From contig NZ_JAKLTQ010000002.1 in the NCBI RefSeq assembly GCF_022012395.1, positions 310,001 to 374,000 of the forward strand: a stretch of DNA of 64,000 nt, in the 5' to 3' direction. Source of the stretch: Arthrobacter hankyongi (GTDB lineage: Bacteria; Actinomycetota; Actinomycetes; Actinomycetales; Micrococcaceae). Within the stretch, counting starts at the first letter, position 1, and the number at the start of each line of letters is the position of its first letter. The position numbers and the translations under genes are program-made. Shown here piece after piece: positions 30,909-63,297 of the stretch. The notes under the pieces were generated by a model. That model worked only from the letters and a program-made list of their open reading frames with translations. It ran no database searches and had not been told where the DNA came from.

Positions 30909-30939
30909 GCCCGCGCAAGTCCCTTTTGGAGAAGAGTCC

Positions 30940-32483: not shown

Positions 32484-32527
32484 CCCGCACTCTGGCCACG
32501 CACCACCACCCCGGCATGGAGAATTCA

Positions 32528-33340
32528 ATGGAACTACAAGAGAACCCGGTGGCCCTCGGCACCGCCGCGGCCCGGCCCCGGCTGGAAGTCACCGCACTGT
32601 CCAAGACCTACGGGTCCGGTCCGAACGCCAAGTGCGTGATCGAGGACCTGACCTTCACCGTCACCACCGGCGAGGTGGTCTGCATCGTCGGCCCGTCAGG
32701 CGTCGGCAAGACCACCTTGCTCAAGTGCCTGGCCGGTCTGCAGCCAGCCACCTCCGGCACCGCCGCGATCGACGGGCGCAGGATCGACGGCCCGCCGCCG
32801 GAAATGGCGCTGGTCTTCCAGGACTACAGCCGCTCGCTGATGCCGTGGCTGACCGTGCGCAAGAACGTGCGCCTGCCGCTGCGCCACCTGCGGCTGCCGG
32901 CCCAGGAAATGAACCAGCGCATCGACGACGCTCTGCGGGCCGTGGGCCTGGACGGGTCGGACGGCAAGTACCCGTGGCAGCTCTCCGGCGGCATGCAGCA
33001 GCGCGTGGCCATTGCCCGCGCGCTGGCCTACCGGCCGGAGATCCTGATCATGGACGAGCCCTTCGCCTCAGTGGACGCCCAGACCCGGTTCGAACTTGAG
33101 GACCTGTGCCTGAAGATCCGGGACGACTTTGGCATGACCATCCTGGTGGTCACCCACGACATCGACGAGGCCGTCTACCTGTCCGACCGGGTTGTCGTAC
33201 TCGGCGCCAAACCGGCCCGGGTGCTCGACGTCATCGGCATCGATTTGCCTGCCCCGCGCGACCAGATTTCCACCCGTTCCCTGCCTGAATTCGCCGAGCA
33301 GCGCACCACCGTGCTGTCGATGATCCGGAAGCCGGCATGA
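32528..33340 (+). CDS. ABC transporter ATP-binding protein (SsuB/TauB-like)
   Basis: 270 residues. Walker [11 protein letters not shown]-loop in [12 protein letters not shown], signature LSGGMQQR, Walker B LIMDEPFA and H-loop His in [13 protein letters not shown]: all intact. ATG 32528 has GGAG six bases upstream and is preferred; ATG 32516 is also possible, and ATG 32480 overlaps the permease stop codon (ATGA), so coupling there cannot be excluded. The end overlaps the sulfatase start by four bases. Confidence 0.88.
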
Positions 33341-48497: not shown

Positions 48498-49028
48498 GGG
48501 ACTCCTCCGGTCGATGTGGTCCATCCATTGTCGCGGCATCGGGTGCCAGCCGAAACCTAGGCAGCAGCAACCGGAAACATCGTCGACGGCGGTGCACCGT
48601 CTTTGGTGCCGGTGCTCCATCTTCCTTGAGCGTGCCAGGGCCGAGGAAGATCACGTCGATGTCCGGCAAAGTAGTCTCATCAAATACCTGATGCACACTC
48701 TTGATCACTTGCGCTGAATCATCCGGATAGGACGGTTCGCCCCGGCATCGGTGTGCTGGTGACCAGCCATCGCTTCCCGGGGGTGGCCCAGGTCATTTCG
48801 GCGGTCATGTTCGCCGGCGGAGTTGCTATAGGAAACCCTCCTCCGAGGAGCCGGGGCATGGGACCCGAGTTCGCGGCGCTGTTCGCCGTCCTGGCTGAGC
48901 CTGGGTGCGTCGCCGTACTTCCGGGGCAGGCCCACGGCTGCTGTGCCGCATGGAGATCAACCGGGGCGATGGTCCCCGTAAAGTACGACGAGATCATCGT
49001 TACCCATTAGCTCCGAAGGACTGCCGAC
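48498..49028. other. 531-bp region without an intact gene; possible coding remnant
   Basis: The region between the divergent oxidase and LysR genes is far longer than a promoter region needs. One minus-strand frame (about 48755 down to 48585) reads naturally, including SYPDDSAQVIKSVHQVFDE and, further on, IDVIFLGPGTLKEDGAPAPK, and lacks a start signal; I cannot name the family. Other frames overlapping it look like noise. It is probably the debris of a lost gene plus the LysR and oxidase promoters. Confidence 0.35.
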
Positions 49029-49934
49029 ATGGATTTCCGCCAACTTGAGTACTTTAAAGCCGTGGTCGAGGCCGGATCGGTCTCGCAGGCTGCGAAGAAC
49101 CTCAGCATGACCCAGCCGCCCGTGAGCCTCGCGATTGCGAAGCTGGAACGCGAGCTGGGCGTCCGGCTGCTGGACCGGACCGCGAAGGGCGTCCATCCCA
49201 CGAATGCGGGCCTGTACCTGCTGGCCAACGGCGGCCGGCTGGTGGCCGATCGGGACCGGCTGGTGGGCACGCTGTCCATGATGGGTGAGGGCGTGGTCGG
49301 CGACCTGCGCATCGGCGTCGAGCCGATGGTGGTCAACGAGGTGGTCGCTGATGTCCTGGCCGAGTTTATCGAGCAGACGCCGCGCGTGCGCGTGAGCCTG
49401 ACCGACGCCGCCCCCGATGCCATCCTGCGCGGGCTCCGGGTCGGCGAGCTGGATATGGCCTGCGTCCCGTTCAGGCCGGATGAGTTCGCCGATTTCGTGT
49501 CCGATATCTGCGAATGGCAGACCATCGTGAAAATCGATGTGAAGCTCGCGGTTCCCCGCTGGCGGGCCCGGGAATACCACCCGGGCGGCCGGGGCTGGGG
49601 TCGGTGGATTCTGCCGTACCGGCTGGCAGCATTCCAAGGCATGCCGGAAGCGGTGGAGGGGGCCCTGTCCGATGACAAATCCTTCGAGGTCCTCGAAGTC
49701 TCCACGCCGCAGACCGCCCTGCCCTTCGTGGCGGCCGGCCTTGGCGTCGCGCCGGTAACGCAGCGCATCGCGGAGAAGTATGAAGCGGTGGCGCTCGTGG
49801 ATGCGCCCCAATGGCTGGAACCGATGCAGGCGACGCTGCTCTGGCGGCGGGGAGCCGAAATCACCCCGGTAATGCAACGGTGGCTGGACGTCACCCGGAA
49901 GGTCGGAGCGCGCCGCCAGGCGCAGGAAATGTGA
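49029..49934 (+). CDS. LysR-family transcriptional regulator
   Basis: 301 residues. N-terminal winged HTH (MDFRQLEYFKAVVEAGSVSQAAKNLSMTQPPVSLAIAKLERELGVRLLDR) and a periplasmic-binding-like effector domain. LysR proteins activate divergent or nearby catabolic genes upon binding a pathway metabolite. It stands between the leftward oxidase-M20-MFS unit and the rightward hydroxylase operon and could govern either or both. Start ATG 49029 follows GAAGGA. Confidence 0.9.
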   Translation: MDFRQLEYFKAVVEAGSVSQAAKNLSMTQPPVSLAIAKLERELGVRLLDRTAKGVHPTNAGLYLLANGGRLVADRDRLVGTLSMMGEGVVGDLRIGVEPMVVNEVVADVLAEFIEQTPRVRVSLTDAAPDAILRGLRVGELDMACVPFRPDEFADFVSDICEWQTIVKIDVKLAVPRWRAREYHPGGRGWGRWILPYRLAAFQGMPEAVEGALSDDKSFEVLEVSTPQTALPFVAAGLGVAPVTQRIAEKYEAVALVDAPQWLEPMQATLLWRRGAEITPVMQRWLDVTRKVGARRQAQEM

Positions 49935-50292
49935 CCAGAGCCATATAGAAAACTTTTCCCCCTTTAATCTCGGCGAATATAGCAAAGCCTGAAAGACGTC
50001 AAACCAAATCTCAAATAGTGGACGCTTTTAATTGTGATATACATCACATAAAACGGGTCATATCTGAGGGTGTGGAAGGCCGCCCGATTTCGGATATAAC
50101 GCCTAGCCAGCCTGTCTTTTTCGCCCTTCCGTGAAGCCTCTGGGTGGGCTTCAATTTATGGTCCCGGCCCGCCCGGACCGATGTGAGATCCCTCTTGCCC
50201 TGTCGACCAGTTGCCTGGGTCACACCCCTGTGTAAATGTCATCGGCAGCCGGAGCCAGCACGACGCCGGCAGCGAAGAAAGGATCTCCAGCA
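49935..50292. other. AT-rich control region of the hydroxylase operon
   Basis: 358 bp with no gene and with base composition much richer in A/T than the rest of the window (for example 49945-50080). It carries the CRP/GlxR-like palindrome at 50033-50048 and, at 50092-50100, GGATATAAC, a possible -10 box. LysR binding sites (T-N11-A) are too degenerate to place. A 5' leader of about 150 bases precedes the first gene. Confidence 0.5.
50033..50048. promoter_or_regulatory. CRP/GlxR-type binding site
   Basis: TGTGA-TATACA-TCACA, a perfect match to the CRP palindrome TGTGA-N6-TCACA and to the GlxR form with central TA. It lies 245 bp before the first gene of the catabolic operon, pointing to cAMP-dependent global carbon control in addition to LysR. 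Confidence 0.6.
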
Positions 50293-51858
50293 ATGAGCGT
50301 GATGAGCGCGGAGCGGTCAGAAGACACCGTGGCGAACAAGGACTACATCCCCTTCACCGGCCAGGAATACCTCGACAGCCTCAACGACGGCCGCGAGGTG
50401 TGGATCTACGGGGAGCGGGTGGAAAACATCACCGAGCACCCGGCCTTCCGGAACTCGGCCCGGATGATCGCCCGCATGTACGACGCGCTCCACGATCCGG
50501 CGCGCAAGGACATCCTGACCATCCCCACCGAGTGGGGCGGCTTCACCCACCGCTTCTACCGCGCCCCCGGCTCGGCCGAGGAACAGTTGGCCCAGCGCGA
50601 CGCCATCGCCGAGTGGCAGAAGATCGCCTGGGGCTGGATGGGCCGTTCGCCCGACTACAAGGGCTGCTTCCTGGGCACGCTGGGCGCCAACGCCGAGTTC
50701 TACCGCGGTTTCGAGGACAACGCGCGCAACTGGTACCGCAAGGCTCAGGAAAAGACCTGGTACGTCAACCATGCCATCATGAACCCGCCGGTGGACCGCG
50801 GCATGGGCGAAAATGCCGGCAAGGACGTCTTCGTCCGGGTCACCAAGGAAACCGATGAGGGCATTTACGTCACCGGCGCCAAGGTGGTGGCCACCGGCTC
50901 GGCCCTGACCCACTACACCTTCGTCGGCCACGTCGGCCAGGTGGCAGTCCAGGACCCGGCGTTCTCGCCGGTCTTCATCACCCCCACCAATGCCCCGGGC
51001 ATCAAGCTGATCTGCCGCACCTCGAACGAGTACCGCGCGGCCGTGCTGGGCAGCCCGTTCGACTACCCGCTCTCCAGTCGGCTGGACGAGAATGACGCGA
51101 TCCTGGTCATGGACAACGTGTTCGTCCCCTGGGAGAACGTTTTTATCCACAACGACCTGGAGCAGGCGAACCGGTACAACATCCACTCCGGCTACCTCGA
51201 GCGCGCCTCGCTGCACGGCTGCACCCGCTTCGCGGTCAAGATGGACTTCCTCGTCGGCATGCTGACCCGCGCCCTCGAGGTCACCGGCGCCCGCGAGTTC
51301 CACGGCGTCAAGTCCCAGCTCGGCGAGGTCATCGCCTGGCGCAACACCTTCTGGGCGCTCTCCGACGCCATGGCCAAGAGCGAGGTCCCGTGGAAGAACG
51401 GGATGATCCAGCCCGATCCGCAGTTCGCCGGCGCCTACCGGGTGATGAACCAGCTGGCCATGCCCAAGATCAAGAACATCATCGAGCAGGTGGTGGCCTC
51501 GGGCCTGATCTACCTGAACTCGCACGTGAATGACTTCAAGGCCTCCGAGATCCGCGGCTACCTGGACACCTACGTCCGCGGTACCGGCGGCATCGACGCC
51601 GAAGAACGCGTCAAGGTCATGAAGATGCTCTGGGACGCGATCGGCACCGAGTTCGGCTCCCGCCACGAGCTGTACGAGATCAACTACATCGGCAGCAACG
51701 ACGTCACCCGCCAGACCAACCTGTTCGGCGCGATGGGCAACGGCGTCCTGGACTACTGCAAGGGCTTCGCGCAGAGCGCGATGGACGAATACAACCTGGA
51801 CGGCTGGACCGTTCCGGACCTGGTGGGCCCGGAAGACGTCAGCGTTCTGAAGTCCTAA
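50293..51858 (+). CDS. 4-hydroxyphenylacetate 3-hydroxylase-family oxygenase (FADH2-dependent)
   Basis: 521 residues, HpaB/PvcC/HadA family with an acyl-CoA-dehydrogenase-like fold. Family marks: FTGQEYLDSLNDGREVWIYGERV at the start; NHAIMNPPVDR; VTGAKVVATGSALTHYTFVG; DYPLSSRLDENDAILVMDNVFVPWENVFI; ARQTNLF-like RQTNLFGAMGNG near the C terminus. These enzymes use reduced FAD from a separate reductase (here 57620) to hydroxylate a phenol ortho to its OH. The true substrate is not deducible; the following ring-cleavage gene implies a catechol-like product. ATG 50293 follows AAGGA by ten bases. Confidence 0.88.
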   Translation: MSVMSAERSEDTVANKDYIPFTGQEYLDSLNDGREVWIYGERVENITEHPAFRNSARMIARMYDALHDPARKDILTIPTEWGGFTHRFYRAPGSAEEQLAQRDAIAEWQKIAWGWMGRSPDYKGCFLGTLGANAEFYRGFEDNARNWYRKAQEKTWYVNHAIMNPPVDRGMGENAGKDVFVRVTKETDEGIYVTGAKVVATGSALTHYTFVGHVGQVAVQDPAFSPVFITPTNAPGIKLICRTSNEYRAAVLGSPFDYPLSSRLDENDAILVMDNVFVPWENVFIHNDLEQANRYNIHSGYLERASLHGCTRFAVKMDFLVGMLTRALEVTGAREFHGVKSQLGEVIAWRNTFWALSDAMAKSEVPWKNGMIQPDPQFAGAYRVMNQLAMPKIKNIIEQVVASGLIYLNSHVNDFKASEIRGYLDTYVRGTGGIDAEERVKVMKMLWDAIGTEFGSRHELYEINYIGSNDVTRQTNLFGAMGNGVLDYCKGFAQSAMDEYNLDGWTVPDLVGPEDVSVLKS

Positions 51859-51888
51859 CTCACTTTCGATCCAGCCACAGGAGGACTC

Positions 51889-52824
51889 ATGGCTACAGCA
51901 ATCGACGCCGCCCAGGTCACCTACGAAGCACCGGACCTCGAGCTCATGGAGAAATTCCTGACCGCCTTCGGCATGACCAAGGTGGAAGGCAGCGACGAGA
52001 ACACCCTGTACATGCGGGGAACCGGCACCCAGCACCACATCCACACGACCCGCAAGGCAGCCAAGCAGCGCTTCATCGGTGCGTCCATCGAGGTCGCCGC
52101 CCGGAAGGATCTCGACGAGCTGGCCGCGATGCCCGGATCGTCGCCTGTTCGTGAGGCCGTTGAGCCGGGCGGCGGCTTGGAGGTCGTCATGCACACCCCC
52201 GACGGCATCGAGATCAAGGCGATCTGGGGCCGGGAGAAGCCCGAGCCCCTCAAGGATCGCGAGCCGTTCGCTTTCAATAACATCAGGGACAAGAACCGCG
52301 TCAACGGCACGGTCCGCCAGGGCGTTGCCCCCTGCACGATCGCCCGCCTGGGGCACTTCGTGCTGCATGTCAGTGATCACGATGCGACGCTGGCGTGGTT
52401 GAAAGCGCGCTTCAACTTCCTGGACTCCGACTACTTCCTGCCCCCGGGCGAGGAGGGCCCGATTGTCGGTACCTTCCTCCGACTGGATCTGGGCGAGCAA
52501 CTGGTCGACCACCATTTCATGCTGGTCCTGCAGTCGGACTGGGTGGGCGTGCACCACGCTGCCTACGAGGTCACCGACCTGGATGCGGTGATGTCGTCCC
52601 ACGACTTCCTGCTCCAGGAAGGCTATACGCCGGATGTAGGCGTGGGCCGGCACCTGCTGGGCAGCCAGGTGTTCGACTACTGGAAGGACCCGTTCGGCTT
52701 CCGGATCGAGCACTACACCGACGGCGACGTCGTGGACGCCAGCCACCAGCCCGGCAAGTTCAACGGCACTGCCAGCGAAACCACGCAGTGGGGCAACCGG
52801 CCGCCGCTGGAGTTCTTCCAGTGA
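51889..52824 (+). CDS. Type I extradiol ring-cleavage dioxygenase
   Basis: 311 residues, two VOC domains as in catechol 2,3-dioxygenases. The Fe(II) facial triad is His156 (LGHFVLHV), His222 or His223 (GVHHAAYEV) and Glu274 (FRIEHYTDGD), all in the C-terminal domain as expected. The fold and length fit meta-cleavage of a catechol made by the upstream hydroxylase. AGGAGG sits directly before ATG 51889, suggesting strong expression. The stop codon overlaps the next start. Confidence 0.88.
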   Translation: MATAIDAAQVTYEAPDLELMEKFLTAFGMTKVEGSDENTLYMRGTGTQHHIHTTRKAAKQRFIGASIEVAARKDLDELAAMPGSSPVREAVEPGGGLEVVMHTPDGIEIKAIWGREKPEPLKDREPFAFNNIRDKNRVNGTVRQGVAPCTIARLGHFVLHVSDHDATLAWLKARFNFLDSDYFLPPGEEGPIVGTFLRLDLGEQLVDHHFMLVLQSDWVGVHHAAYEVTDLDAVMSSHDFLLQEGYTPDVGVGRHLLGSQVFDYWKDPFGFRIEHYTDGDVVDASHQPGKFNGTASETTQWGNRPPLEFFQ

Positions 52825-53579
52825 GCGCCGCCATCACAGAGCCGCTGGCCGCCACCGGGCTGGATCCGGCGGTCCGGGAGAAGCTGCTGAAGGTCGGCTC
52901 GGCCAACGTTGCCAACGTCCTGCTCAAGCGCGGCTTCCGGAACGTCATGATGCTGGGTGTGGCTCCGCTGTCCGCGGACCAGCCGCAGTTGGTGGGACCG
53001 GCCTACACGCTCCGGTTCATCCCGGCGCGCGAGGACCTGGACTCGATGGCCAATTACGGCCGCGGGGACAACAAGCACCGCCGCGCGATCGAGGAGTGCC
53101 CGGCCGGTTCCGTCCTGGTGATCGACGCCGGTGGTTCGCTGGCGGCGTCGTCCATGGGGGACATGATGGCCGCCCGCCTGAAGTACCGCGGCGTCAGCGG
53201 CGTGGTGACCGACGGCGGCTACCGCGACGCGGCGGCCATCCGCGGGACGGGCCTGCCCTGCTACCAGGTGCGCAACGCGCCGCCGGCCACCCCGATCGCC
53301 CTGCACCCGGTGGCCCTGGACGAGCCGGTCGGCTGCGCCGGCGTCGCTGTCTACCCGGGCGATGTGATCGTCGGCGACAGCGACGGCGTCGTGGTCATCC
53401 CGTGGCACCTGGCCACGGAAGTGGCGGACGAGGCGCTCGACGCCGTCGAGTACGAGGAGTTCGCCGCCCGGCATATCGCGAATGGCCGGTCCATCTTCGG
53501 GCTCTTCCCGGCCACGCCCCAAAGCCGCGCCGAATACGACGAATGGGTGGCCGCGGGCCGCCCGGAAGTGGAGTCATAG
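52821..53579 (+). CDS. RraA-fold aldolase (class II pyruvate aldolase type)
   Basis: 252 residues. RraA/HMG-aldolase fold: EECPAGSVLVIDAGG, then the D-X20-R-D motif (D in MGDMM and the RD of GGYRD), then YPGDVIVGDSDGVVVIP. The Asp 20 residues ahead of the RD pair marks the 4-hydroxy-4-methyl-2-oxoglutarate/4-carboxy-4-hydroxy-2-oxoadipate aldolases and is lacking in the RNase E inhibitor RraA, so C-C cleavage releasing pyruvate is likely. GTG 52821 overlaps the dioxygenase stop codon (GTGA), so translation is coupled. Confidence 0.83.
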   Translation: MSAAITEPLAATGLDPAVREKLLKVGSANVANVLLKRGFRNVMMLGVAPLSADQPQLVGPAYTLRFIPAREDLDSMANYGRGDNKHRRAIEECPAGSVLVIDAGGSLAASSMGDMMAARLKYRGVSGVVTDGGYRDAAAIRGTGLPCYQVRNAPPATPIALHPVALDEPVGCAGVAVYPGDVIVGDSDGVVVIPWHLATEVADEALDAVEYEEFAARHIANGRSIFGLFPATPQSRAEYDEWVAAGRPEVES

Positions 53580-54001
53580 TGAACGTCAACCCCGAACTGC
53601 TCAAGTCGCTGGAAATCCTCATCCACCAGGGGGACCTGAAGGAGGAGGAGTGGATCGACTACCCCGACTACGGGTTCCGGCAGTACTTCCTGTTCAAGAA
53701 CCCGGAGACCGGGGCCAGCATCGCGCTGCTGGACTACGAGAAGGGCGGGACCATCCCGACCAAGCACACGCATGCGTCCAACCAGTTCATGTACTGCCTC
53801 GAAGGCGACTACGAGTATACGGACTCGGGCCTGCGGCTGAAGCCGGGCTCCTTCTACATGAATCCGAAGGACCACCCGCACGGACCCACCGTGGCCCATG
53901 AGCGCAGCCTGCTGATCGAGATCTACGACGGTCCGCACTACTACGAGAAGCCCGAGTACCACACCGACGAGACCATCGGCGGGTTCCTCGCCAAGGACTG
54001 A
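53579..54001 (+). CDS. Single-domain cupin protein
   Basis: 140 residues. A beta-barrel cupin: motif 1 PTKHTHASNQFMYCLEGDYEY (two His and the Glu ligand set) and motif 2 LKPGSFYMNPKDHPHGPT (final His). This metal site is complete, so it can act as a dioxygenase, isomerase or sensor; ChrR- and dihydroxyacetophenone-dioxygenase-like proteins look similar. The GTG at 53579 overlaps the aldolase stop codon by one base, with GGAG just before. Its step in the pathway is not clear; isomerisation of a cleavage product is a guess. Confidence 0.8.
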   Translation: MNVNPELLKSLEILIHQGDLKEEEWIDYPDYGFRQYFLFKNPETGASIALLDYEKGGTIPTKHTHASNQFMYCLEGDYEYTDSGLRLKPGSFYMNPKDHPHGPTVAHERSLLIEIYDGPHYYEKPEYHTDETIGGFLAKD

Positions 54002-54042
54002 AGCGGCAGCCCGGCCTCGTTGCCACCGACCTGACGAAACGA

Positions 54043-55605
54043 ATGGAAGAGACTTTGCTTACCACCACACAAGCCCTGTTCGACACCGAAGAAGCGCTGG
54101 CCGCCTTCGGGCTGGATAAGGTGCACTCCGGCACCTACTCGGACTCCTTCGGCTGGGGCGCCGTCGAGGGGCGCCCGGTCATCGAAGCGCAGTACCCGGC
54201 CGACGGCGAGATCGTCGGCCGCGTCGCGGCCTCGGACGCCGGCGACTTCGAGAAGATCCTCACCGCATCCGTCGACACGCAGAAGAAGTGGCGCATGGTG
54301 CCGGCACCGCGCCGCGGCGAGTTCGTGCGCCGCATCGGCCAGTTGATCGAGGAAAACCTCGACGCCTTGGCCGCGATCGACTGCCTGGACACCGGCAAGT
54401 CGACCATGGAGGCCAAGGGCGAGCTGCGCGAATGCATCGACATGGCCACGCTGGCCGCCGGCCAGGCGCGGATGATGTACGGCTTCACCCAGCAGTCCCA
54501 GCGTCCCGAGCACCGTATGTACGATCAGTGGCTGCCGCTGGGCGTTGTCGGCATCATCAGCGCCTACAACTTCCCGGCCGCCGTCTGGGCGCAGAACGGC
54601 TTCCTGTCCGCGATCGCCGGCAACACGGTGGTCTGGAAGCCCAGCCCGAAGGTCCCGCTGACCGCCATCGCCATCCAAACCCTGGTCAACCGGGCGGCCA
54701 AGGAAATGGGCTGCGAAGGCGTGTTCTCGCTCTTCATCCCCGCCCAGAACGACGTCGCCGAGAAGCTGGTCACCGACACCCGCATCGCGATGGTCTCCTT
54801 CACCGGTTCCACTTCCGTGGGCAAGAAGGTCGCCAACATCGTCGGCTCCACGCTCGGCCGCCGCTACCAGCTGGAGTGCTCCGGCAACAACGGCTGCATC
54901 GTGGACGAGACTGCCGACCTTGAGCTCGCGGCCAAGGCCCTCACCTTCGGCGTCGTCGGCACCACCGGCCAGCGCTGCACCAGCACCCGCCGCGTAATCG
55001 CCCACTCGAGCATCGCCGACGAGTTGGTCGAGCTGATGAAGAAGTCCTTCGACCAGATCACCATCGGCGATCCGCGCGACCCGGACACCGTCGTCGGCCC
55101 GCTGATCGACGCTCCCGCTGTCGAGGACTACAAGAACATCCTCGCCGGCGCGCAGCGCGACGGCGCCACCGTCGCCTACGGCGGCAACGTCCTGGACCGC
55201 CCGGGCCTGTACGTGGAACCGACCATCGTGACCGGGGTCCAGCCGCACTTCGAGATCGCCCAGGAGGAGACCTTCGCACCGATCGTCTCCGTGCTGACCT
55301 ACGAGACCCTCGACGAGGCCATCGAGATCCACAACGGCGTCGCCCAGGGCCTGGCCTCGGGCATGCACAGCACCAACCTGACCAACATCGAGACCTTCCT
55401 CTCCGCCCGCGGCAGCGACTGCGGCATTGTGCGCATCAACATGGGCACCACCGGCGCCGACGTCGGCTCCGCGTTCGGCGGAGAGAAGGAGACCGGCGGC
55501 GGACGCACGGCCGGTTCCGATGCCTGGAAGGGCTTCATGCGCCGCCAGAGCGTGTGCGTGAACTGGGGCGGCAAGAGCGCCTGGGACAACCGGATCAACC
55601 TCTAA
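54043..55605 (+). CDS. Aldehyde dehydrogenase, ALDH7-like
   Basis: 520 residues, NAD-dependent ALDH. IISAYNFPAAVWAQNGFLSAIAGN; the general-base Glu in LECSGNNGCIV; catalytic Cys in TTGQRCTSTRR; C-terminal GSAFGGEKETGGGRTAGSDAWKGFMRRQ, which is the signature of the ALDH7/alpha-aminoadipic-semialdehyde group. In this operon it should oxidise the semialdehyde made by ring cleavage. The start is uncertain: ATG 54043 has a weak site, while TTG 54055 has GGAAGAG directly upstream. Confidence 0.87.
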   Translation: MEETLLTTTQALFDTEEALAAFGLDKVHSGTYSDSFGWGAVEGRPVIEAQYPADGEIVGRVAASDAGDFEKILTASVDTQKKWRMVPAPRRGEFVRRIGQLIEENLDALAAIDCLDTGKSTMEAKGELRECIDMATLAAGQARMMYGFTQQSQRPEHRMYDQWLPLGVVGIISAYNFPAAVWAQNGFLSAIAGNTVVWKPSPKVPLTAIAIQTLVNRAAKEMGCEGVFSLFIPAQNDVAEKLVTDTRIAMVSFTGSTSVGKKVANIVGSTLGRRYQLECSGNNGCIVDETADLELAAKALTFGVVGTTGQRCTSTRRVIAHSSIADELVELMKKSFDQITIGDPRDPDTVVGPLIDAPAVEDYKNILAGAQRDGATVAYGGNVLDRPGLYVEPTIVTGVQPHFEIAQEETFAPIVSVLTYETLDEAIEIHNGVAQGLASGMHSTNLTNIETFLSARGSDCGIVRINMGTTGADVGSAFGGEKETGGGRTAGSDAWKGFMRRQSVCVNWGGKSAWDNRINL

Positions 55606-55615
55606 GGAGACAACC

Positions 55616-56038
55616 ATGACGGTAGAAACAAAGGCACTGAAGAAGCAGCGGTTTTATTCCGACGCCGTCGGCGAACCCGCCGAGGGCATGTGGTCCAACT
55701 GCCTGCGGATCGGGGACCTGATCACGGTCTCCGGCCTGACGGCCCGCGGTCTCGACGGGCAGACCATCCAGGGCGATGGGGAATACGAGCAGGCCAAGGT
55801 CATCTTCCAGAAGATCAAGGACCTGGTGGAGGCCGCCGGCGCAGCGATGGACGACGTCGTGAAGATGACGATCTTCGTGACCAACATGGCCAACAACTCC
55901 GAGGTCTGGAAGGCCCGCAAGGAGTTCTTCACCGGCGATTTCCCCGCCTGCACCCTGGTCGAGGTTTCCGCCCTGGCCAAGCCCGAGATCCTCGTGGAGA
56001 TCGAGGCCCTCGCAGTCGCCGGCTGCAGCGCCAACTAA
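55616..56038 (+). CDS. RidA/YjgF-family protein (putative deaminase)
   Basis: 140 residues, trimeric Rid fold. GLTARGLDGQTIQGDGEYEQAKVIFQKIKDLVEAAGAAMDDVVKMTIFVTNM, then PACTLVEVSALAKPEILVEIEALAV. In archetypal RidA the second segment has PARTxVEV with an Arg essential for enamine hydrolysis; here this Arg is Cys, so it belongs to another subgroup. 2-Aminomuconate deaminase also has this fold, and a deaminase or tautomerase on the ring-cleavage product is the most fitting role. TAAGGAGA before ATG 55616. A hairpin follows. Confidence 0.85.
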   Translation: MTVETKALKKQRFYSDAVGEPAEGMWSNCLRIGDLITVSGLTARGLDGQTIQGDGEYEQAKVIFQKIKDLVEAAGAAMDDVVKMTIFVTNMANNSEVWKARKEFFTGDFPACTLVEVSALAKPEILVEIEALAVAGCSAN

Positions 56039-56056
56039 TCCCCGGCCAGCCTGATG

Positions 56057-56098
56057 CCGGGCGGGGCGTTGCGCGGCACTGCACAACGCCCCGCCCGG
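56057..56098 (+). terminator. Hairpin between RidA and permease genes
   Basis: 15-bp perfect stem (56057-56071 with 56084-56098) and 12-base loop, 19 bp after the RidA-family stop codon. With no T-run and genes continuing on the same strand, it may be a partial terminator or an mRNA-stabilising structure that lowers expression of the transporter relative to the enzymes. Confidence 0.65.
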
Positions 56099-56125
56099 GT
56101 CCTCTCTTCCCACTTAAGGACAATC

Positions 56126-57583
56126 ATGTCTGCACATTCGAACTCCCCGGAATCGATTGATTCCTCGCTGGCCGTCGCCGCCGAAGACCACGCCCTGGCC
56201 AGCGTGCCGATGGGGGACCGCAAGAGCGGCTTCCAGCTCTCCCTCAGCCCGGTCAGCGTTGCCACGGCCCTGGTCATCTTCGCCATCGGCGGTTTCACGG
56301 TGGTGCTGGCCGGCTTCACCGTGGGCATGATTGCCGGCATCCTCGTGGCGGTCTTCGGCGTGTTCCTTGGCAGGAGCCTGGGCCGGATGGCGTTCAACAC
56401 CGGCATGTCCAGCACCATCACCTCCCGCTTCTTCGGGTTCGGGCTGAAAGGCTCCTCGATCGGCTCGATCATCTTCACCTTCATGATCCTGGGCTTCCTC
56501 GCCATGGAGTCCGCCCTGCTGTACGAGGGCACCCTGCTGATGTTCGGCCTGGACGACACCTGGCCGGTGCGGATCCTCCTCTACGGGCTGATGACACTGC
56601 TGTGGATCGGCCTGGCCATCTTCGGCCTCAAGCTCGCGCTGCGCGCCACCGGCGTCCTGACGCTGATCACCATCCTGGTCGCGGTCTTCATGGTCATCCA
56701 GATCTACGCCGTCCAGGGCGCCAACCCGATGGACGTGTTCACCTACCAGGGCGTTGTCCCCGGCGGGGCCTGGCCCAAGTTCGAGGCCGCGATCGGCGTC
56801 ATGGGCGCCACCGCCGGCACCATCGCCCTGGTCACCACCGACTTCGCCCGCTACTGCCGCACCAACCGCGACGTGAGCATCCTGGCCGTGGCCGGGCCGG
56901 TCACGCAGAACATCATCATGACCGTCCTCGGTGCCCTCATCGTCATCGGCGGCATGCCCAAGGTGATCGACTACCTGATGGCCCGCAATGCCGGCATGAG
57001 CCCGCAGGCCGCAGCCGAGGCCGCCAGCCTGTTCGTCATGCAGAACACCGGCGCCTTCTTCGTGGTCTTCGCCGGCTGGATCGGGTTCATCACCATCTAT
57101 GCCGCCCAGGCCAAGGCCCAGGCCATCAACGCCTACTCCGGCTCGCTGTCCCTGGTGAACCTGGTCGACTCCCTGACCGGCTGGAAGCCGGGCCGCGCGG
57201 TGATGGTCGTCGTCGGCAATTTCATCGCCCTGCTGATGATCGCCGGCGGCATCCTCGGGCAGTTCGCCGCCTACCTTGCCTACCTCGGCTGCATGACGCT
57301 GGGCATGTGCGGCGTGATGATCGCCGACTACTACATCATCCGGCACGGCCGGTACGACGCCGCCACCCACAAGGTGGAGAAGTGGAACTGGGCCGGCGTG
57401 GTCACGCTGGTGGTCTCCGCCGCCGTCGGCATCATCCTGATGGCCACCGGCATCTTCGCCCTCGGCTTCCTGGTCTCGTTCGTGTTGGCCATCGGGCTCT
57501 ACCCGCTGCTGCGCAGCCGGATGCCGGAAGGCACCGCCACTTCCTTCGTGGCCGAAGCCGAAGCCCTGGCCGAAGCCCACTGA
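56126..57583 (+). CDS. NCS1-family permease (purine-cytosine permease-like)
   Basis: 485 residues with 12 membrane helices. NCS1 marks: VATALVIFAIGGFTVVLAGFTVGM in TM1, GMSSTITSRFFGFGLKGS, VTTDFARYCRTNRDV after TM6, GFITIYAAQAKAQAINAYSGSLSL in TM8. NCS1 carriers import cytosine, uracil, allantoin, hydantoins, pyridoxine or thiamine. Its presence among ring-cleavage genes suggests that the substrate is an N-heterocycle (inference). TAAGGA lies five bases before ATG 56126. Confidence 0.87.
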   Translation: MSAHSNSPESIDSSLAVAAEDHALASVPMGDRKSGFQLSLSPVSVATALVIFAIGGFTVVLAGFTVGMIAGILVAVFGVFLGRSLGRMAFNTGMSSTITSRFFGFGLKGSSIGSIIFTFMILGFLAMESALLYEGTLLMFGLDDTWPVRILLYGLMTLLWIGLAIFGLKLALRATGVLTLITILVAVFMVIQIYAVQGANPMDVFTYQGVVPGGAWPKFEAAIGVMGATAGTIALVTTDFARYCRTNRDVSILAVAGPVTQNIIMTVLGALIVIGGMPKVIDYLMARNAGMSPQAAAEAASLFVMQNTGAFFVVFAGWIGFITIYAAQAKAQAINAYSGSLSLVNLVDSLTGWKPGRAVMVVVGNFIALLMIAGGILGQFAAYLAYLGCMTLGMCGVMIADYYIIRHGRYDAATHKVEKWNWAGVVTLVVSAAVGIILMATGIFALGFLVSFVLAIGLYPLLRSRMPEGTATSFVAEAEALAEAH

Positions 57584-57619
57584 ACCCCTTTCACCCCGCT
57601 ATCCCAGGAGGTAGAAACG

Positions 57620-58183
57620 ATGACTGAAGTCCTCTCCGCACCCGTGATCCAGAACCGTGCCGGCGCCAGCTTCCTGTCCGGCGACCGGAACGCCGGCAGC
57701 GAAGCCCCCGCCTTCGACCCGCGCCAGCTGCGCAACACGCTGGGCAACTTCGCCACCGGCGTCACCGTCCTGACCTACGAATCCGCCGGCAGCAACTACG
57801 GGATGACCGTGAACTCGTTCACCTCGGTCTCCCTGGAACCGCCGCTGGTGCTGGTCTCGCTCATGCGCAGCTCGCAGGCGCTGTCCTACCTTATGGAGCG
57901 CCCGTTCGCGATCAACGTGATGGGCGATGATCAGCTCGGCACTGCGCTGCAGTTCGCCGGCAAGCCGCAGGACGATCTGACGATCGACTGGGTGCTGGAC
58001 GAATCCGCCCCGCGCATCAGCGGTTCCCTGGCGCACTTCCAGTGCACCCCGTGGGCGGCGTACGACGGCGGGGACCACGTCCTGCTGCTGGCCCGGGTGG
58101 AGTCCTTCGGCCAGCAGGACGACGGCCGGCCACTGCTGTTCCACCGCGGCCAGTGGGGCGAGCTGGCCAGCAGCGGCCGGTAA
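57620..58183 (+). CDS. Flavin reductase, HpaC-like
   Basis: 187 residues. Flavin-reductase domain with LRNTLGNFATGVTVLTY, GMTVNSFTSVSLEPPLVLVSL and the C-terminal DHVLLLARVESF; about 30 extra N-terminal residues. It uses NAD(P)H to reduce FAD, which then diffuses to the oxygenase encoded at 50293: a two-component monooxygenase split by six genes. AGGAGG lies nine bases before ATG 57620. Confidence 0.88.
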   Translation: MTEVLSAPVIQNRAGASFLSGDRNAGSEAPAFDPRQLRNTLGNFATGVTVLTYESAGSNYGMTVNSFTSVSLEPPLVLVSLMRSSQALSYLMERPFAINVMGDDQLGTALQFAGKPQDDLTIDWVLDESAPRISGSLAHFQCTPWAAYDGGDHVLLLARVESFGQQDDGRPLLFHRGQWGELASSGR

Positions 58184-58300
58184 AGACTGCCGGCCAGTGA
58201 CGGCGGCGTCCGGTGTCCCGATCTATCGCACACCGTGACTCAACATTGCGGCCAAAAGCTCGCCGCACCCCTGCAGCCGTCTAAGATAAAGAGCTCTTTT

Positions 58301-58335
58301 GGCCCCTTCCCCCACCCCGGGCGGGGGAAGGGGCC
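58301..58335 (+). terminator. Hairpin terminator after the flavin reductase
   Basis: 13-bp perfect stem (GGCCCCTTCCCCC at 58301-58313 with 58323-58335) and nine-base loop, but no T-run after it. It would end the hydroxylase operon. Confidence 0.6.
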
Positions 58336-58501
58336 GTGACACCGCCCGGCCGGATCCGGCTTGCGGCCGCCCGGGACCTAACCAGACGCTTTCCTTCAGG
58401 GCGCACGACCGATGCGTGTGCGAACCATGCCGGACCGGCGCGCCCCACTGTTTCTTCCGCCGTCGCGCCACCCCTAAACCGCGCCGGCACTGCACCGCCG
58501 A

Positions 58502-58525
58502 AGGCAGAACGACGTTGTTCTGCCT
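58502..58525. promoter_or_regulatory. Inverted repeat, candidate operator of the MFS-sulfatase-FAH unit
   Basis: AGGCAGAAC-N6-GTTCTGCCT, perfect 9-bp arms, 44 bp before the MFS start codon. Suits a dimeric repressor; none is adjacent except LysR, TetR and IclR genes elsewhere in the window. Confidence 0.45.
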
Positions 58526-58568
58526 GGGGCGGGTGTTTTCCTCCAACAGTTAAAGGACCTTGGAATCA

Positions 58569-60005
58569 ATGGCAACACTCATTTCGCGCCGGGCTACCGA
58601 CGCAGAATCCCGTTCGGGCCGTTCCTCGCTCATGATCGTCCTCTCGATCGTGCTGCTGAGCGAAGTCGCATCGTTCGAATACAACATGGTGAGCCCGGCC
58701 CTGCCCAATATCGCCACCAGCTTCGGGACGACCCAGCCAGGCCTGGTGTTCACGGTACTTTTGATCTGCGGTGCCATGCTGCTGCCGATCCTAGGCAAGC
58801 TCGGTGACGTGATCGGCAAGAAGAAAGTTCTGCTGCTCGGCGCGGGCGCCATGGCCGTGGGCACCCTGATCTGCTCAATCGCCCCCGTGTACAGCATCTT
58901 CCTGGCCGGCCGCGGGATGCAGGCCTTCGGCATGGTGGGCCTGGTGCTCACCTACGGACTGATCCGGGACCTGCTGCCCAAGAAGTGGGTTCCGGTGGCC
59001 ATCGGCGGCATCGGTGCGGGCGTGGGAGTGTCCGGGGTCCTCGGTCCGACCCTCGGCGGGTTCCTCACGCAGAACTACGGCTACAAGAGCGTCTTCGTCT
59101 TCCTGACCGTCTACATCATCGTCACCGTCCTCCTCGTGGCCGTCGTCGTTCCCGAGACGCCGGTGCGGGCCCGCCATAAGATCGACTTCCTCGGCGCGCT
59201 GCTGCTGGGCGGTGGTGCGGCCCTGCTGTGCTACGCCACCGTCAAGTCCCCCTACCAGGCTGTCTCGGCCGTGGCCGGTGCCCTGCTGCTGGTGGCGTTC
59301 ATCCTGGTGGAGCGCCGGGCCGCCGAACCGCTGATGCCGCTGACGCTGATGCGCCAGCGCAAGGTCTGGGCCACCCTGCTGATCTCCTCGCTGCTGGGCT
59401 TCATTTTCAACTCCAACGTGGCCATCATTTCCCAGATGGCCCAGTCCGCCCCGGTGTCCGGCGTTGACTCCGGCCTCGGCCTCTCGCCCGTTGAGTTCTC
59501 GTTGACCTATGCCCTGCCGCTGGGCCTGCTGGGATCTGCTTCCGGTCTGGGCGCCGGATACCTGGCCAAGCGGATCGGGCCGAAGTACCCGATGATCTTC
59601 AGCGCCCTGTGCTGGTTCGCCGGTGCCATGCTGATTGCGCTCGGACTGGTCGGTTCTTCGGGCATGCTGCTGCTGGTGGCCTTCATCTTCGGCCTGGGCA
59701 ACGGCTCCTACCACGCCTCGGCGTCCAACCTGGTGATCGAGGCGGTCCCCGCGACCACCCAGGGCGTCGGTGCCTCCCTGAAGGCAACCTCCGAGCAGCT
59801 GTTCGGAGCCTTCGGCAACGCCATCATCGGTGCGGTCGTCGCGGCCGCGATCATCAGCACCCCCGGCGGGGCCGGGCCGATCTCCTATGACATGGGCGGA
59901 TTCCACCTGGCATACGGTATCTACGCGGCCGTGGCGCTGCTGGCCATCATCGTCACCCTGACGCTGCGGCACGGCAACAAGCCCGCTACCGGCGGCGCTG
60001 CCTAG
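58569..60005 (+). CDS. MFS transporter, DHA2/QacA-like
   Basis: 478 residues, 12 to 14 hydrophobic segments. TM1-2 EVASFEYNMVSPALPNIATSF; motif A GKLGDVIGKKKVLLLG; VGVSGVLGPTLGGFL is the motif C region. ATG 58569 is used; a TTG at 58560 lies too close to the AAAGGA site. It is immediately followed by the arylsulfatase, so import of a sulfated compound or export of a product is the likely role. Confidence 0.85.
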   Translation: MATLISRRATDAESRSGRSSLMIVLSIVLLSEVASFEYNMVSPALPNIATSFGTTQPGLVFTVLLICGAMLLPILGKLGDVIGKKKVLLLGAGAMAVGTLICSIAPVYSIFLAGRGMQAFGMVGLVLTYGLIRDLLPKKWVPVAIGGIGAGVGVSGVLGPTLGGFLTQNYGYKSVFVFLTVYIIVTVLLVAVVVPETPVRARHKIDFLGALLLGGGAALLCYATVKSPYQAVSAVAGALLLVAFILVERRAAEPLMPLTLMRQRKVWATLLISSLLGFIFNSNVAIISQMAQSAPVSGVDSGLGLSPVEFSLTYALPLGLLGSASGLGAGYLAKRIGPKYPMIFSALCWFAGAMLIALGLVGSSGMLLLVAFIFGLGNGSYHASASNLVIEAVPATTQGVGASLKATSEQLFGAFGNAIIGAVVAAAIISTPGGAGPISYDMGGFHLAYGIYAAVALLAIIVTLTLRHGNKPATGGAA

Positions 60006-60032
60006 TTCTCCGCCCAGCGAAAGGAAACGCGC

Positions 60033-62357
60033 ATGACCATTCCCGAGTATGCCCGGGGCTACGAAGGCTACGAGGGCCGGATCGGCAGGACGACGGCGTC
60101 GTCGCAGCCGTCCTGGCCGGCGGAGGCCACGCCGCCCAAGGGGGCCCCCAACGTCATCGTGATCGTGGCCGACGACCTCGGCTACAGCGATATCAGCCCC
60201 TACGGCTCTGAGATTCCGACGCCGAACCTGCAGCGGCTCGCGGACCACGGCGTCAGCATGACGAACTACCACACGGCTCCCATGTGCTCCCCGGCGCGTG
60301 CCTCGCTCCTGACCGGGGTAAACCCCCACCGGGCCGGGTTTGGGTTCGTTTCCAACGTCGACCCGGGCTTCCCCGGCATGCGGATCGAGTTCGGCGAGGA
60401 CATCGCGACCCTGCCGAAGATCCTGCGAGGCCACGGGTACGCCACGATGGCGTTCGGCAAGTGGCACCTGGTGCGGGAAGCCAACATGCATGAGGGTGCC
60501 TCCAAGGAATCCTGGCCGTGCCAGCAGGGATTCGACCACTACTACGGGTCGCTTGAAGGCCTCAACTCCTTCTTCGAGCCGAACCAGCTTGTTGTCGACA
60601 ACACGGTGCTCAACAACGAGGAGTGGCCGGACGACTACTACGTGACCGACGACCTGACCGACCGGGCCGTTTCTCAGATCCTGTCCCTGCGCAGTTCCCA
60701 TCCGGACAAGCCGTTCTTCTGCTATTTCGCCCATATGGCCGTCCACGCGCCGCTGCAGGTACCGGCAGATGTCCTGGCCGAACAGCGCGGGAAGTACGCC
60801 CGGGGCTGGGATGCCCTGCGGGAGGAACGGTTCCGCCGGCAGCGCGAGCTGGGGCTGTTCGGCCCCGACGTGGAGCAGGCCCCCCGGAACGACACCCCCG
60901 GATACGACGTCGGCCCCTGGGACGAGCTGAGCAGGGAAGAGCAGGAGCGCTTCGCCAAGTACATGGAGGCCTATGCGGCGATGGTGGTGACCATCGACCG
61001 GTCCGTGGGCCGGCTGGTGACCCTCCTCGAGGATCTGGGCGAACTGGACAACACGCTCATCGTCTTCACCTCGGACAACGGCGCCTCGGCCGAAGGCGGG
61101 GCCGAGGGCACGAGGTCCTACTATCGGATGTTCCCGCACTCACTGGCCGAGTTCGGCTGGCAGGGTGATACCCCGCTTGATGAAGACCTCATCGGCGGAC
61201 GCGACTCGGCCGCCCACTACCCGCGCGGCTGGGCCCAGACCTCCAACACCCCGTTCCGCTACTACAAGGGACAGACCTTCGCAGGAGGGGTGCGGGTGCC
61301 GTTCCTGGCGTCCTGGCCCGGGGCACCGGCGAAGATGGCGGGCGTGCGGGACCAGTACTCCTATGTGACCGATGTGGTGCCCACGATCCTGGACCTGGTG
61401 GGGATCGGGCATCCGGGTACTGCCTCCGGTGGCGGGCTGACTGCTCCCGACGGCATGTCGGTGGCCGATGTCTGGGCCAGCCCGGAGGCCGACTCCGCCC
61501 ACACGGTGCAGTATTCGGAGATCTCGGGCCACCGCGGGCTGTACTGTGACGGCTGGAAGCTGCTGTCGCTGTATGACAAGAAGGGCCCGGTGGACGAGCC
61601 CAAGTGGCAGCTCTTCGACATGCGCAACGATCCCACCGAGCTGCACGACCTGGCCTCGCAGCATCCTGACCTGGTACGGAAGTTCGCCGCACTCTGGGAC
61701 CGGGAGGGCTGGCGGAACTCCGTGTTCCCGCTTATCGAGGGCAGCGGACCGGGGGCCCGTGTGCTGCCCGGGCGGCGGCCCGCGGACCAGTACCTGGTGG
61801 ACCCGGTGCGGATCCTGCCGGGCACCCCGGTGATGGAACGGTACCGGTCCCTGGAACTGATCCAGTACCGCGATTTCCGGGTACGGATCCTGCTGGGAGG
61901 TTCGGCCGCCTCCGATGAAGGAGTCCTGATCTCCCATGGTGATGTCCAGGGCGGTTATCTGCTGTACGTCGAGGACGGGGACCTGTGGTTCGGCTACAAC
62001 TGCTACGGCGAGCCGCTGCTGGCCCGGGTGGCGCCGTGGGCGGACGGGATCAGGTCCCTGGTCCTGGAGGCCGAGGTTGTGGACCCCTTGCAGTGGACGT
62101 TCCGCGTGCGGATCGGCGACGGCCCGGCCCTGACCGCAATGGATACGGTGCCGCTGATGACCGGCATGGTGCCGTGGACGGGAATCGCCGTCGGGCGCGA
62201 CCCGCGCGGTCCTGTCCTCCGCGAGCTGCGGAACCGGAGGGGAACCTTCCCCTGGACCGGCCTGCTGCGGGAGGTCGTCTACGAACCCGGGAAGCAGCGG
62301 CCGATTTCGGCTCTGCGGGAAAAGATCGAGGTCGAGGCACAGCGCCGGGCCGACTGA
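60033..62357 (+). CDS. Arylsulfatase, large Cys-type
   Basis: 774 residues, AtsA-like length. Metal Asp pair in NVIVIVADDLGYSDI; modification motif C85-S-P87-A-R89 in APMCSPARASLLTG; FGKWHL is the conserved active-site Lys/His segment, and TSDNGASAEGG bears the second metal Asp-Asn. The C-terminal ~240 residues form the extra beta domain of long arylsulfatases. No signal peptide is visible (N terminus MTIPEYARGYEGYEGR), so cytoplasmic. Formylglycine would be supplied by the enzyme at 26338. GAAAGGAAA before ATG 60033. Confidence 0.9.
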   Translation: MTIPEYARGYEGYEGRIGRTTASSQPSWPAEATPPKGAPNVIVIVADDLGYSDISPYGSEIPTPNLQRLADHGVSMTNYHTAPMCSPARASLLTGVNPHRAGFGFVSNVDPGFPGMRIEFGEDIATLPKILRGHGYATMAFGKWHLVREANMHEGASKESWPCQQGFDHYYGSLEGLNSFFEPNQLVVDNTVLNNEEWPDDYYVTDDLTDRAVSQILSLRSSHPDKPFFCYFAHMAVHAPLQVPADVLAEQRGKYARGWDALREERFRRQRELGLFGPDVEQAPRNDTPGYDVGPWDELSREEQERFAKYMEAYAAMVVTIDRSVGRLVTLLEDLGELDNTLIVFTSDNGASAEGGAEGTRSYYRMFPHSLAEFGWQGDTPLDEDLIGGRDSAAHYPRGWAQTSNTPFRYYKGQTFAGGVRVPFLASWPGAPAKMAGVRDQYSYVTDVVPTILDLVGIGHPGTASGGGLTAPDGMSVADVWASPEADSAHTVQYSEISGHRGLYCDGWKLLSLYDKKGPVDEPKWQLFDMRNDPTELHDLASQHPDLVRKFAALWDREGWRNSVFPLIEGSGPGARVLPGRRPADQYLVDPVRILPGTPVMERYRSLELIQYRDFRVRILLGGSAASDEGVLISHGDVQGGYLLYVEDGDLWFGYNCYGEPLLARVAPWADGIRSLVLEAEVVDPLQWTFRVRIGDGPALTAMDTVPLMTGMVPWTGIAVGRDPRGPVLRELRNRRGTFPWTGLLREVVYEPGKQRPISALREKIEVEAQRRAD

Positions 62358-62401
62358 CATCCCAAGAACACATCGATAACAAGAAAGAGGACCTGCACAC
62401 T

Positions 62402-63241
62402 ATGAAGCTCGCAACCCTGCGCACCACCGGGGGCACGGCCGCCGCCCGTCTGGACGGGGACGTTTATACCGAGATCGCCGGGTACCCGGACCTCGGCGCC
62501 CTGCTGGCCGAGGAGAACTGGCAGGAGATTGCCCGCGGCGCAGCCGGGCCGGAGCATCCGGCGGCGGAGGCCGAACTGGCCACGGTGGTGCCGAACCCGT
62601 CCAAGGTGCTGTGCGTGGGGCTCAACTACAAGAGCCACATCCAGGAGATGGGCCGGGAACTGCCCACCCACCCCACCGTGTTCGCGAAGTTCGCCGATAC
62701 CCTGACCGGCCCGGCCGATCCGGTGGAGGCCGTGGCGGAGGACCCGGAGCTGGACTGGGAAGGCGAGCTGGCCATCGTCATCGGACGGACCGCCTACCGG
62801 GTGGGCGAAGCGGAAGCCGGGGATTACATCGCCGGCTATACAGCGGCCAACGATATCTCGATGCGCGGCTGGCAGTTCCGCTCCATCGAATGGCTGCAGG
62901 GTAAAATCTGGGCCCGTTCCACCCCGGTGGGTCCGGTCATGGTCACCTCTGACGAGTTCGACCCGGCCGCCTCAACGCTGCGGACCACCGTCAACGGCGC
63001 CGTCATGCAGGAGCACCCGATCTCGGACCTGCTGTTCAAGCCGAACCAGCTGGTGGCCTACCTGTCCACGATCCTGCCGCTGCGACCCGGCGACCTGATC
63101 CTCACCGGCACCCCCGGCGGCGTGGGCCGGGCGCGCACCCCCGAGCTGTACCTGAAGGCGGGGGACCGGGTCGAGGTGAGCGTGGACGGCATCGGCGTCC
63201 TGTCCACCCCGATCACCGAACCGGCACACCTGCCGGCTTAA
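62402..63241 (+). CDS. Fumarylacetoacetate hydrolase-family enzyme
   Basis: 279 residues. The family core: KVLCVGLNYKSHIQEMG, PTVFAKFADTLTGP, then the metal-binding ExE and Asp in DWEGELAIVIGR and NDISMRGWQF, and DLILTGTPGGVGRAR. FAH-family members act as hydrolases, hydratases (2-oxopent-4-enoate), decarboxylases (4-oxalocrotonate) or isomerases in meta-cleavage routes. With the ring-cleavage dioxygenase and RraA-fold aldolase, one of the latter roles suits best. Last gene of the unit, ending in a terminator. Confidence 0.88.
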   Translation: MKLATLRTTGGTAAARLDGDVYTEIAGYPDLGALLAEENWQEIARGAAGPEHPAAEAELATVVPNPSKVLCVGLNYKSHIQEMGRELPTHPTVFAKFADTLTGPADPVEAVAEDPELDWEGELAIVIGRTAYRVGEAEAGDYIAGYTAANDISMRGWQFRSIEWLQGKIWARSTPVGPVMVTSDEFDPAASTLRTTVNGAVMQEHPISDLLFKPNQLVAYLSTILPLRPGDLILTGTPGGVGRARTPELYLKAGDRVEVSVDGIGVLSTPITEPAHLPA

Positions 63242-63257: not shown

Positions 63258-63297
63258 GAGGCGGGCAGTGCGGGTTCCTGCCCGTCCTGCCCGCCTC
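63258..63297. terminator. Hairpin terminator between FAH and nuclease genes
   Basis: 11-bp perfect stem (GAGGCGGGCAG at 63258-63268 with 63287-63297). It ends the FAH transcript and overlaps the stop codon of the convergent nuclease gene by two bases. Confidence 0.7.

Follow-up and report, generated by a model that had tools for sequence, protein, structure and literature searches.

A gene cluster at 49029–63241 of the Arthrobacter hankyongi window (the whole stretch of DNA analysed, 64,000 nt of contig NZ_JAKLTQ010000002.1) comprises twelve open reading frames (ORFs), all of them intact and all on the + strand, as determined by ORF and family analysis. With moderate confidence, and from sequence comparison, we propose that these genes form a LysR-controlled operon which degrades a hydroxylated, probably nitrogen-containing (hydroxypyridine-like) ring by a modified meta-cleavage. 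Homologous loci in other bacteria suggest a wider proposal that we hold to be evenly poised, namely that a horizontally spread, undescribed lower pathway for an N-heterocyclic diol (VOC dioxygenase, three-His cupin, arginine-less Rid protein, RraA and FAH) has been joined to three unrelated hydroxylases (HpaB, PhzS-like and molybdenum enzymes) and two unrelated aldehyde oxidases, with the cupin and Rid acting as new enzymes on the ring-fission product.

Conservation of the cluster and exchange of its first enzymes

Three Streptomyces plasmids carry colinear clusters with 64–87 % protein identity to the window, in the order LysR-HpaB-VOC-RraA-cupin-ALDH (aldehyde dehydrogenase)-Rid-NCS1-reductase-(acyl-CoA dehydrogenase-like)-FAH, and a scan of an 84,980-species genome collection with a cupin alignment returned 55 loci from Actinobacteria, beta- and alphaproteobacteria and Pseudomonas. 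On the strength of these two observations the predicted cluster is a conserved unit, beyond chance. The comparison of gene order with other genomes that a preliminary description of this DNA had proposed thus finds colinear plasmid clusters and homologues in many genera, including Streptomyces, Rhodococcus, Corynebacterium, Leucobacter, Nocardioides and Pseudomonas. A LysR gene 53–73 % identical to that of the window precedes HpaB in the Streptomyces, Leucobacter, Nocardioides and Rhodococcus loci, and FAH orthologues are 54–76 % identical in those actinobacterial loci with a match; no FAH match was found in loci L021, L022 and L036. Presence is patchy at the family level (2/197 genomes, own genome counted, at E 1e-40), and at the class level the own genome alone was found among 394 genomes drawn (1/394 at E 1e-60, scoring being limited to five candidates per genome). 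Based on this patchy occurrence and the plasmid location, the operon has probably spread laterally.

In order to score gene content, presence was called by tblastn (E ≤ 1e-10) in up to ~10 kb on each side, or longer for plasmid records, with identity thresholds of 60 % for the cupin, 55 % for HpaB, 50 % for ALDH, Rid, RraA and the NCS1 permease, 45 % for two families of molybdenum enzymes (c21 and the CoxL-type c9), 40 % for the VOC dioxygenase and a PhzS-like monooxygenase (c18), and 30 % for FAH. Of 66 loci (L007–L072), three were dropped (L010, no cupin; L019, from one species with L012; L029, on one contig with L011); a VOC match was lacking in 13 more, and the other 50 were kept. The cupin occurs in all 50, mostly by construction as L018–L072 were found via the cupin, followed by RraA (48), Rid (46), FAH (39) and NCS1 (17, with orthologues 63–78 % identical). 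The core, as judged from these predictions, is therefore the extradiol dioxygenase, cupin, Rid and RraA, usually with FAH.

Two further positions are filled by different enzymes in different loci. The hydroxylase slot holds HpaB in 29 loci, c18 in 11, c21 in six and none of these in four (including L066, where a c21-family gene falls below threshold), and never two at once; the oxidase slot holds ALDH in 34 loci, c9 in 12 and neither in four, and never both. The hypergeometric probability of zero overlap between ALDH and c9 is 1.5e-8 when loci are counted and 4e-6 when they are grouped into 32 genus-level classes (built on 31 labels, taken from record titles, that name a genus or a metagenome-assembled genome (MAG)), with shared descent not corrected for; Streptomyces (11 loci) and Variovorax (7) are over-represented, and the ALDH calls of L061 and L063 (55–56 %) lie near the threshold. 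Judging from these slot counts, the predicted lower enzymes vary little between loci, and those for entry and oxidation can be exchanged. One locus of the HpaB/c9 version, L058, lies on a contig titled as a Klebsiella pneumoniae MAG, possibly mis-binned.

The alternative hydroxylases bear on the nature of the substrate. Family c18 is a FAD_binding_3 monooxygenase whose top solved matches are 2rgj and 3c96, which we take to be the phenazine hydroxylase PhzS, and a second Rid-like gene (PF14588, below cut-off) accompanies c18 in nine loci and never occurs without it. The best curated model for c21 is the xanthine dehydrogenase XdhA, below cut-off, and its top solved matches are 4-hydroxybenzoyl-CoA reductase, a CO-dehydrogenase-type enzyme, 6-hydroxypseudooxynicotine dehydrogenase and quinoline 2-oxidoreductase. 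Molybdenum enzymes of the XdhA-like kind typically hydroxylate N-heterocycles. As a molybdenum enzyme and a PhzS relative substitute for HpaB, we infer that a nitrogen-containing ring is the more likely substrate. Separately, XdhC-type maturation genes for molybdenum enzymes were seen near the cluster at 4844 in L054, at 3 in L056 and at ~11750 in L041, L044 and L048 (one member, L048, scanned); L054 and L056 gave no match to either c9 or c21.

In two Aminobacter loci (L067, 11703–15942; L068, 11713–15940) the core adjoins a corrinoid protein, a c18 monooxygenase and the formyltetrahydrofolate deformylase PurU. The best model for the corrinoid protein is the glycine-betaine protein MtgC, below cut-off, and PurU scores above its cut-off; together they hint at an N-methylated substrate. 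Homarine and trigonelline were considered on this account; a search of the homarine literature gave nothing useful.

Gene organization in the window

The gene set given in the preliminary description stands: its ORFs are intact and its domain families are recovered with hidden Markov models (HMMs). The LysR-type regulator (49029–49934; PF00126/PF03466) is followed by a candidate LysR site (49940–49959) with a CCATA half site at 49941–49945 and a right half that is degenerate in the window. In an alignment of the LysR-HpaB intergenic region from 13 loci, counted by eye, CCATA is present in 11/13 and the palindrome CCATA-N8-TATGG is complete in 5/13, making the latter a candidate LysR-type site. 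Next comes the HpaB-family aromatic hydroxylase, predicted to depend on reduced flavin (50293–51858; PF11794/PF03241, HpaB_N/HpaB). Its ORF opens at 50236; the start is probably 50293, as a ribosome-site-like aagaaaggat lies just 5' of it and three relatives align from residue 19–21. The type I (VOC) extradiol ring-cleavage dioxygenase (51889–52824; PF00903, 25 bits, above cut-off), the RraA-fold aldolase/decarboxylase (52821–53579; PF03737, above cut-off), the three-His cupin (53573–54001; Cupin_7), the ALDH, a probable ring-cleavage semialdehyde dehydrogenase (54043–55605; PF00171), and the Rid-fold protein, a probable enamine/imine hydrolase (55616–56038; PF01042), then precede the NCS1-type permease (56126–57583; PF02133, 30 bits versus a cut-off of 23.5), whose ORF opens at 56054 and whose start is probably 56126, and a flavin reductase presumed to be the partner of HpaB (57620–58183; PF01613).

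From HpaB through the flavin reductase the genes lie almost end to end. A gap of 376 bases separates the reductase from the ORF of an accessory MFS transporter (58560–60005; PF07690), and therefore this gene, the accessory Cys-type sulfatase (60033–62357; PF00884) and the FAH-superfamily hydrolase/decarboxylase/isomerase (62402–63241; PF01557) may form a second transcription unit. Divergent from LysR lies an FAD enzyme resembling N-methyltryptophan/sarcosine oxidase (47325–48620; PRK11259, 291.6 bits, above the cut-off of 257), and directly after FAH, on the − strand, a YhcG-type PDDEXK nuclease (63296–64000; PF06250).

Conserved residues and predicted folds

That these genes form a single catabolic unit combining two-component hydroxylation with type I extradiol cleavage, as had been suggested earlier, is borne out by invariant ligands and a fold match of the dioxygenase. 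None of the likely metal ligands (H156, H222/H223 and E274) varies among the 40 aligned VOC sequences, the window's included, and the same holds for H208, H255 and Y264; the assignment of these residues to roles rests on what we take to be the features of BphC. The best structural match of the model (pLDDT 92.6) in Foldseek is 3b59, an uncharacterized VOC protein, followed by catechol 2,3-dioxygenases and homoprotocatechuate 2,3-dioxygenases. On sequence and model the protein appears to be a type I extradiol enzyme, with the two-domain fold, the 2-His-1-Glu site and the catalytic His/Tyr. It is not an AmnAB-type enzyme, which we presume to be of the LigB type; none of the four LigB matches in the genome falls within the cluster.

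In the cupin, H65, H67 and H103 are invariant, and so is Gln71, at what we assume to be the position of the usual motif Glu (39/39 aligned sequences). Matches of its sequence profile to solved structures were weak only; the top folds for its model (pLDDT 87.2) are 3bal and 5bpx (acetylacetone dioxygenase and 2,4'-dihydroxyacetophenone dioxygenase; TM ~0.6), the nearest being acetylacetone dioxygenase. The best solved relative of the Rid protein is PA3499 (2ig8, 82.8 bits), with 2-aminomuconate deaminase 6izh ranking 35th of 50 (40.6 bits). The position of the archetypal substrate-binding arginine, presumably R105 of E. coli RidA, is occupied by C, S or A in 22/22 aligned sequences (R in 1xrg). 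As such, the earlier comparison of this protein with 2-aminomuconate deaminase was not upheld. The solved structure nearest to HpaB is 4oo2, a chlorophenol-4-monooxygenase entry. In the 5.2 Mb genome as a whole the HpaB family has seven matches, four of them at 674–684 bits against the HpaB-2 model.

Proposed pathway and its alternatives

From the family memberships, conservation and slot exchange observed, we infer a substrate, a set of reactions and an order for them. The permease would import the compound which, in this strain, the sulfatase may first free from a sulfate ester as an optional step. HpaB and the flavin reductase would then place a second hydroxyl beside the first (ortho-hydroxylation), the VOC dioxygenase would open the ring beside the diol to give a semialdehyde, and the ALDH would oxidize this to the acid. 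Rid could hydrolyse an enamine or imine with release of ammonia, and FAH and RraA would cut the chain to pyruvate-type products; the cupin is placed at no particular step. The role of FAH and RraA is proposed by analogy with homoprotocatechuate breakdown, where it is probably alike, and the two are paired as one fused protein at a homoprotocatechuate-like locus of the same genome, an arrangement absent from the preliminary description.

The evidence for nitrogen in the ring is indirect. The molybdenum enzyme (6/50) and PhzS relative (11/50) speak for the nitrogen-containing ring put forward earlier, as does the kpi cluster for 4-hydroxypyridine, which shares a cytosine/purine-type permease and an FAH protein in the excerpted text (PMC7356986). 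Several points weigh on the other side. The NCS1 permease is present in only 17/50 loci, and ABC-type transporter genes lie near several others. The placement of c21 as the diol-forming enzyme follows from exclusivity, and an XdhA-like enzyme could oxidize an aldehyde rather than the ring. Rid has no match in 4/50 loci (three Advenella and one Burkholderiales MAG) and lacks the archetypal arginine. Pyridine rings are usually opened with the help of an amidase or deformylase, and the core contains no obvious one. Finally, with Rid and cupin set aside, the remaining genes would suit a nitrogen-free catechol in every respect.

This last point leads to the view, which we consider unlikely, that the cluster encodes a further pathway of the homoprotocatechuate type, acting on a para-substituted phenol without nitrogen, with Rid merely guarding against reactive intermediates. 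The enzyme kinds (HpaB, reductase, ALDH, FAH and RraA) do match those of the homoprotocatechuate-like locus (L099), homoprotocatechuate 2,3-dioxygenase is among the structures that the VOC model resembles, and Rid is dispensed with in the four loci above; against this, Rid is retained in 46/50 loci, a molybdenum enzyme can occupy the hydroxylase slot, an NCS1 permease is encoded and the diagnostic cut-offs are missed. The window HpaB scores 674 bits against TIGR02310 (cut-off 885), the VOC protein 72 bits against HpaD (TIGR02295, cut-off 321) and the ALDH 260 bits against HpaE (cut-off 638), the top NCBIfam model for the ALDH being L-piperidine-6-carboxylate dehydrogenase (585 bits, cut-off 730). 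Genome-wide, every protein stays below the HpaB-2 and HpaD cut-offs, and three other VOC proteins outscore that of the window on HpaD. Furthermore, L099, on another contig, encodes an HpaB (56 %), a flavin reductase (60 %), a FAH-RraA fusion (PRK12764, 837 bits versus a cut-off of 444; window RraA 38 % identical to its RraA half) and an ALDH above the HpaE cut-off (643 versus 638 bits). HpaD was not seen at L099, whose contig ends there, and the identity of this locus as homoprotocatechuate-like is itself deduced. Given this separate locus, the window cluster is probably not the strain's 4-hydroxyphenylacetate pathway, and that assignment was rejected.

Nitrogen could also enter as a ring substituent, to be freed by Rid from aminomuconate as in the amn pathway for 2-aminophenol. 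The order of enzyme kinds agrees with amn as given in the excerpted text (extradiol dioxygenase, semialdehyde dehydrogenase, 2-aminomuconate deaminase, 4-oxalocrotonate decarboxylase, hydratase and aldolase; PMC3790839), yet Rid is nearer PA3499 than 6izh and amn, according to the same text, has a two-subunit dioxygenase and no starting hydroxylase, so that we regard this route as improbable. Very improbable, in our estimation, is one specific form of the hydroxypyridine-like pathway that we favour, in which 4-hydroxypyridine or 3,4-dihydroxypyridine would be opened to 3-(N-formyl)formiminopyruvate, converted by Rid to 3-formylpyruvate, by ALDH to oxaloacetate and by RraA/FAH to pyruvate. On paper it uses every core enzyme, and the intermediates proposed for kpi agree with it up to 3-formylpyruvate in the excerpted text (PMC7356986), which nevertheless places KpiA and KpiC in other families and has the kpi FAH finishing without an ALDH; the N-deformylase that this route requires was not seen, unless the cupin serves. 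A 2,3-dihydroxypyridine route with N-oxalyl intermediates was not preferred, as it would leave FAH and RraA idle.

Sulfatase and the sulfate-ester question

The sulfatase holds the Cys-type C-X-P-X-R motif (CSPARASLLTG), and a formylglycine-generating enzyme that could activate it is encoded in the window (26338–27276, + strand; PF03781 match 26434–27270), one of two PF03781 matches in the genome, the other being on contig C7. The genome's sole other sulfatase also lies within the window, at a locus (26338–34929) with the formylglycine-generating enzyme, an NMT1/THI5-type binding protein and two ABC permeases, which looks like a separate locus for sulfate-ester or sulfonate scavenging.

Across L006–L072, the MFS transporter has no match at E ≤ 1e-10, and a sulfatase match was found in four loci (L029, L036, L041 and L044). 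In Enteractinococcus helveticum (L029) the sulfatase lies ~1 kb after LysR and in Corynebacterium (L036) ~0.2 kb after the acyl-CoA-dehydrogenase-like gene; identity between these two is 70 %, and to the window sulfatase 30 %. The Advenella sulfatases (L041 and L044; 34–35 %) are on the opposite strand, with ~5.7 kb between them and the cupin. As most loci have neither gene, MFS and sulfatase were rejected as members of the conserved core.

Whether these two genes are chance neighbours, the substrate never being a sulfate ester on arrival, is a question on which we give chance somewhat less than even weight. The rarity of both genes, the acyl-CoA-dehydrogenase-like gene that the Streptomyces plasmid loci hold at that place, and the distance and orientation of the Advenella sulfatases all fit chance. 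Against it stand the recurrence of sulfatases near the cluster in three genera and a formylglycine-generating enzyme adjoining the sulfatase in Corynebacterium (PF03781) and, by eye only, in Advenella. Moreover, sulfatases are few in the genomes searched (five of six cluster-bearing genomes have any match, with at most three rows each). By a rough hand estimate, ~1 chance sulfatase neighbour would be expected among the loci. The association is thus suggestive: arrival as a sulfate ester, raised in the preliminary description, is weakly favoured by the sulfatases of the three genera and disfavoured by the few sulfatase matches and the unmatched MFS transporter.

Significance and comparison with known systems

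That Actinobacteria and Proteobacteria have one core between them, with first enzymes that can be exchanged, points to a natural compound of wide occurrence. The Streptomyces plasmid genes are annotated merely as VOC family protein, dimethylmenaquinone methyltransferase, cupin and RidA, and naming the substrate would assign functions to several poorly named families together, and would put to the test whether N-heterocycles are ring-opened by type I extradiol enzymes. An involvement of sulfate esters would link aromatic breakdown to sulfate scavenging.

No published description of the full gene set was found in the open-access literature among the matches listed, with most subscription journals outside that scope. 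This agrees with the earlier statement that the exact set has no described pathway, and constitutes weak evidence. The hpa/hpc systems are alike in HpaB and its reductase, extradiol dioxygenase, semialdehyde dehydrogenase, FAH and an aldolase (RraA in this genome's fusion); unlike them, the window cluster adds Rid, cupin and NCS1 and misses the HpaB, HpaD and HpaE cut-offs. The amn pathway of Burkholderia xenovorans LB400 and others shares the logic of dioxygenase, ALDH, deaminase, decarboxylase and aldolase, but differs, in addition to its dioxygenase and the absence of an initial hydroxylase, in its separate decarboxylase, hydratase and aldolase, as far as the excerpted text describes them (PMC3790839), and the window Rid is not close to the solved 2-aminomuconate deaminase. 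The pyd genes for 3-hydroxy-4-pyridone (Rhizobium TAL1145) open a dihydroxypyridine by extradiol cleavage, as is proposed here for a hydroxypyridine-like ring; the excerpted texts assign PydA to the LigB family or class III type (PMC7356986, PMC3637104), and a PydA-like identity of the VOC enzyme was rejected on that ground. Among the matches listed, the closest hydroxypyridine cluster in print in the open-access literature is kpi of Arthrobacter sp. IN13, likewise actinobacterial, with a cytosine/purine-family permease, flavin-dependent hydroxylation leading to extradiol opening, and FAH proposed last. It differs in its FAD_binding_3 hydroxylase KpiA, amidohydrolase-fold dioxygenase KpiC and alpha/beta hydrolase, and its table, in the excerpted text, has no HpaB, VOC, RraA, cupin, Rid or ALDH (PMC7356986); conversely, KpiA- and KpiC-type Pfam families are absent from the 12 cluster proteins. 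Set beside these systems, the cluster is a variant of meta-cleavage catabolism that differs from the known ones in its set of enzymes.

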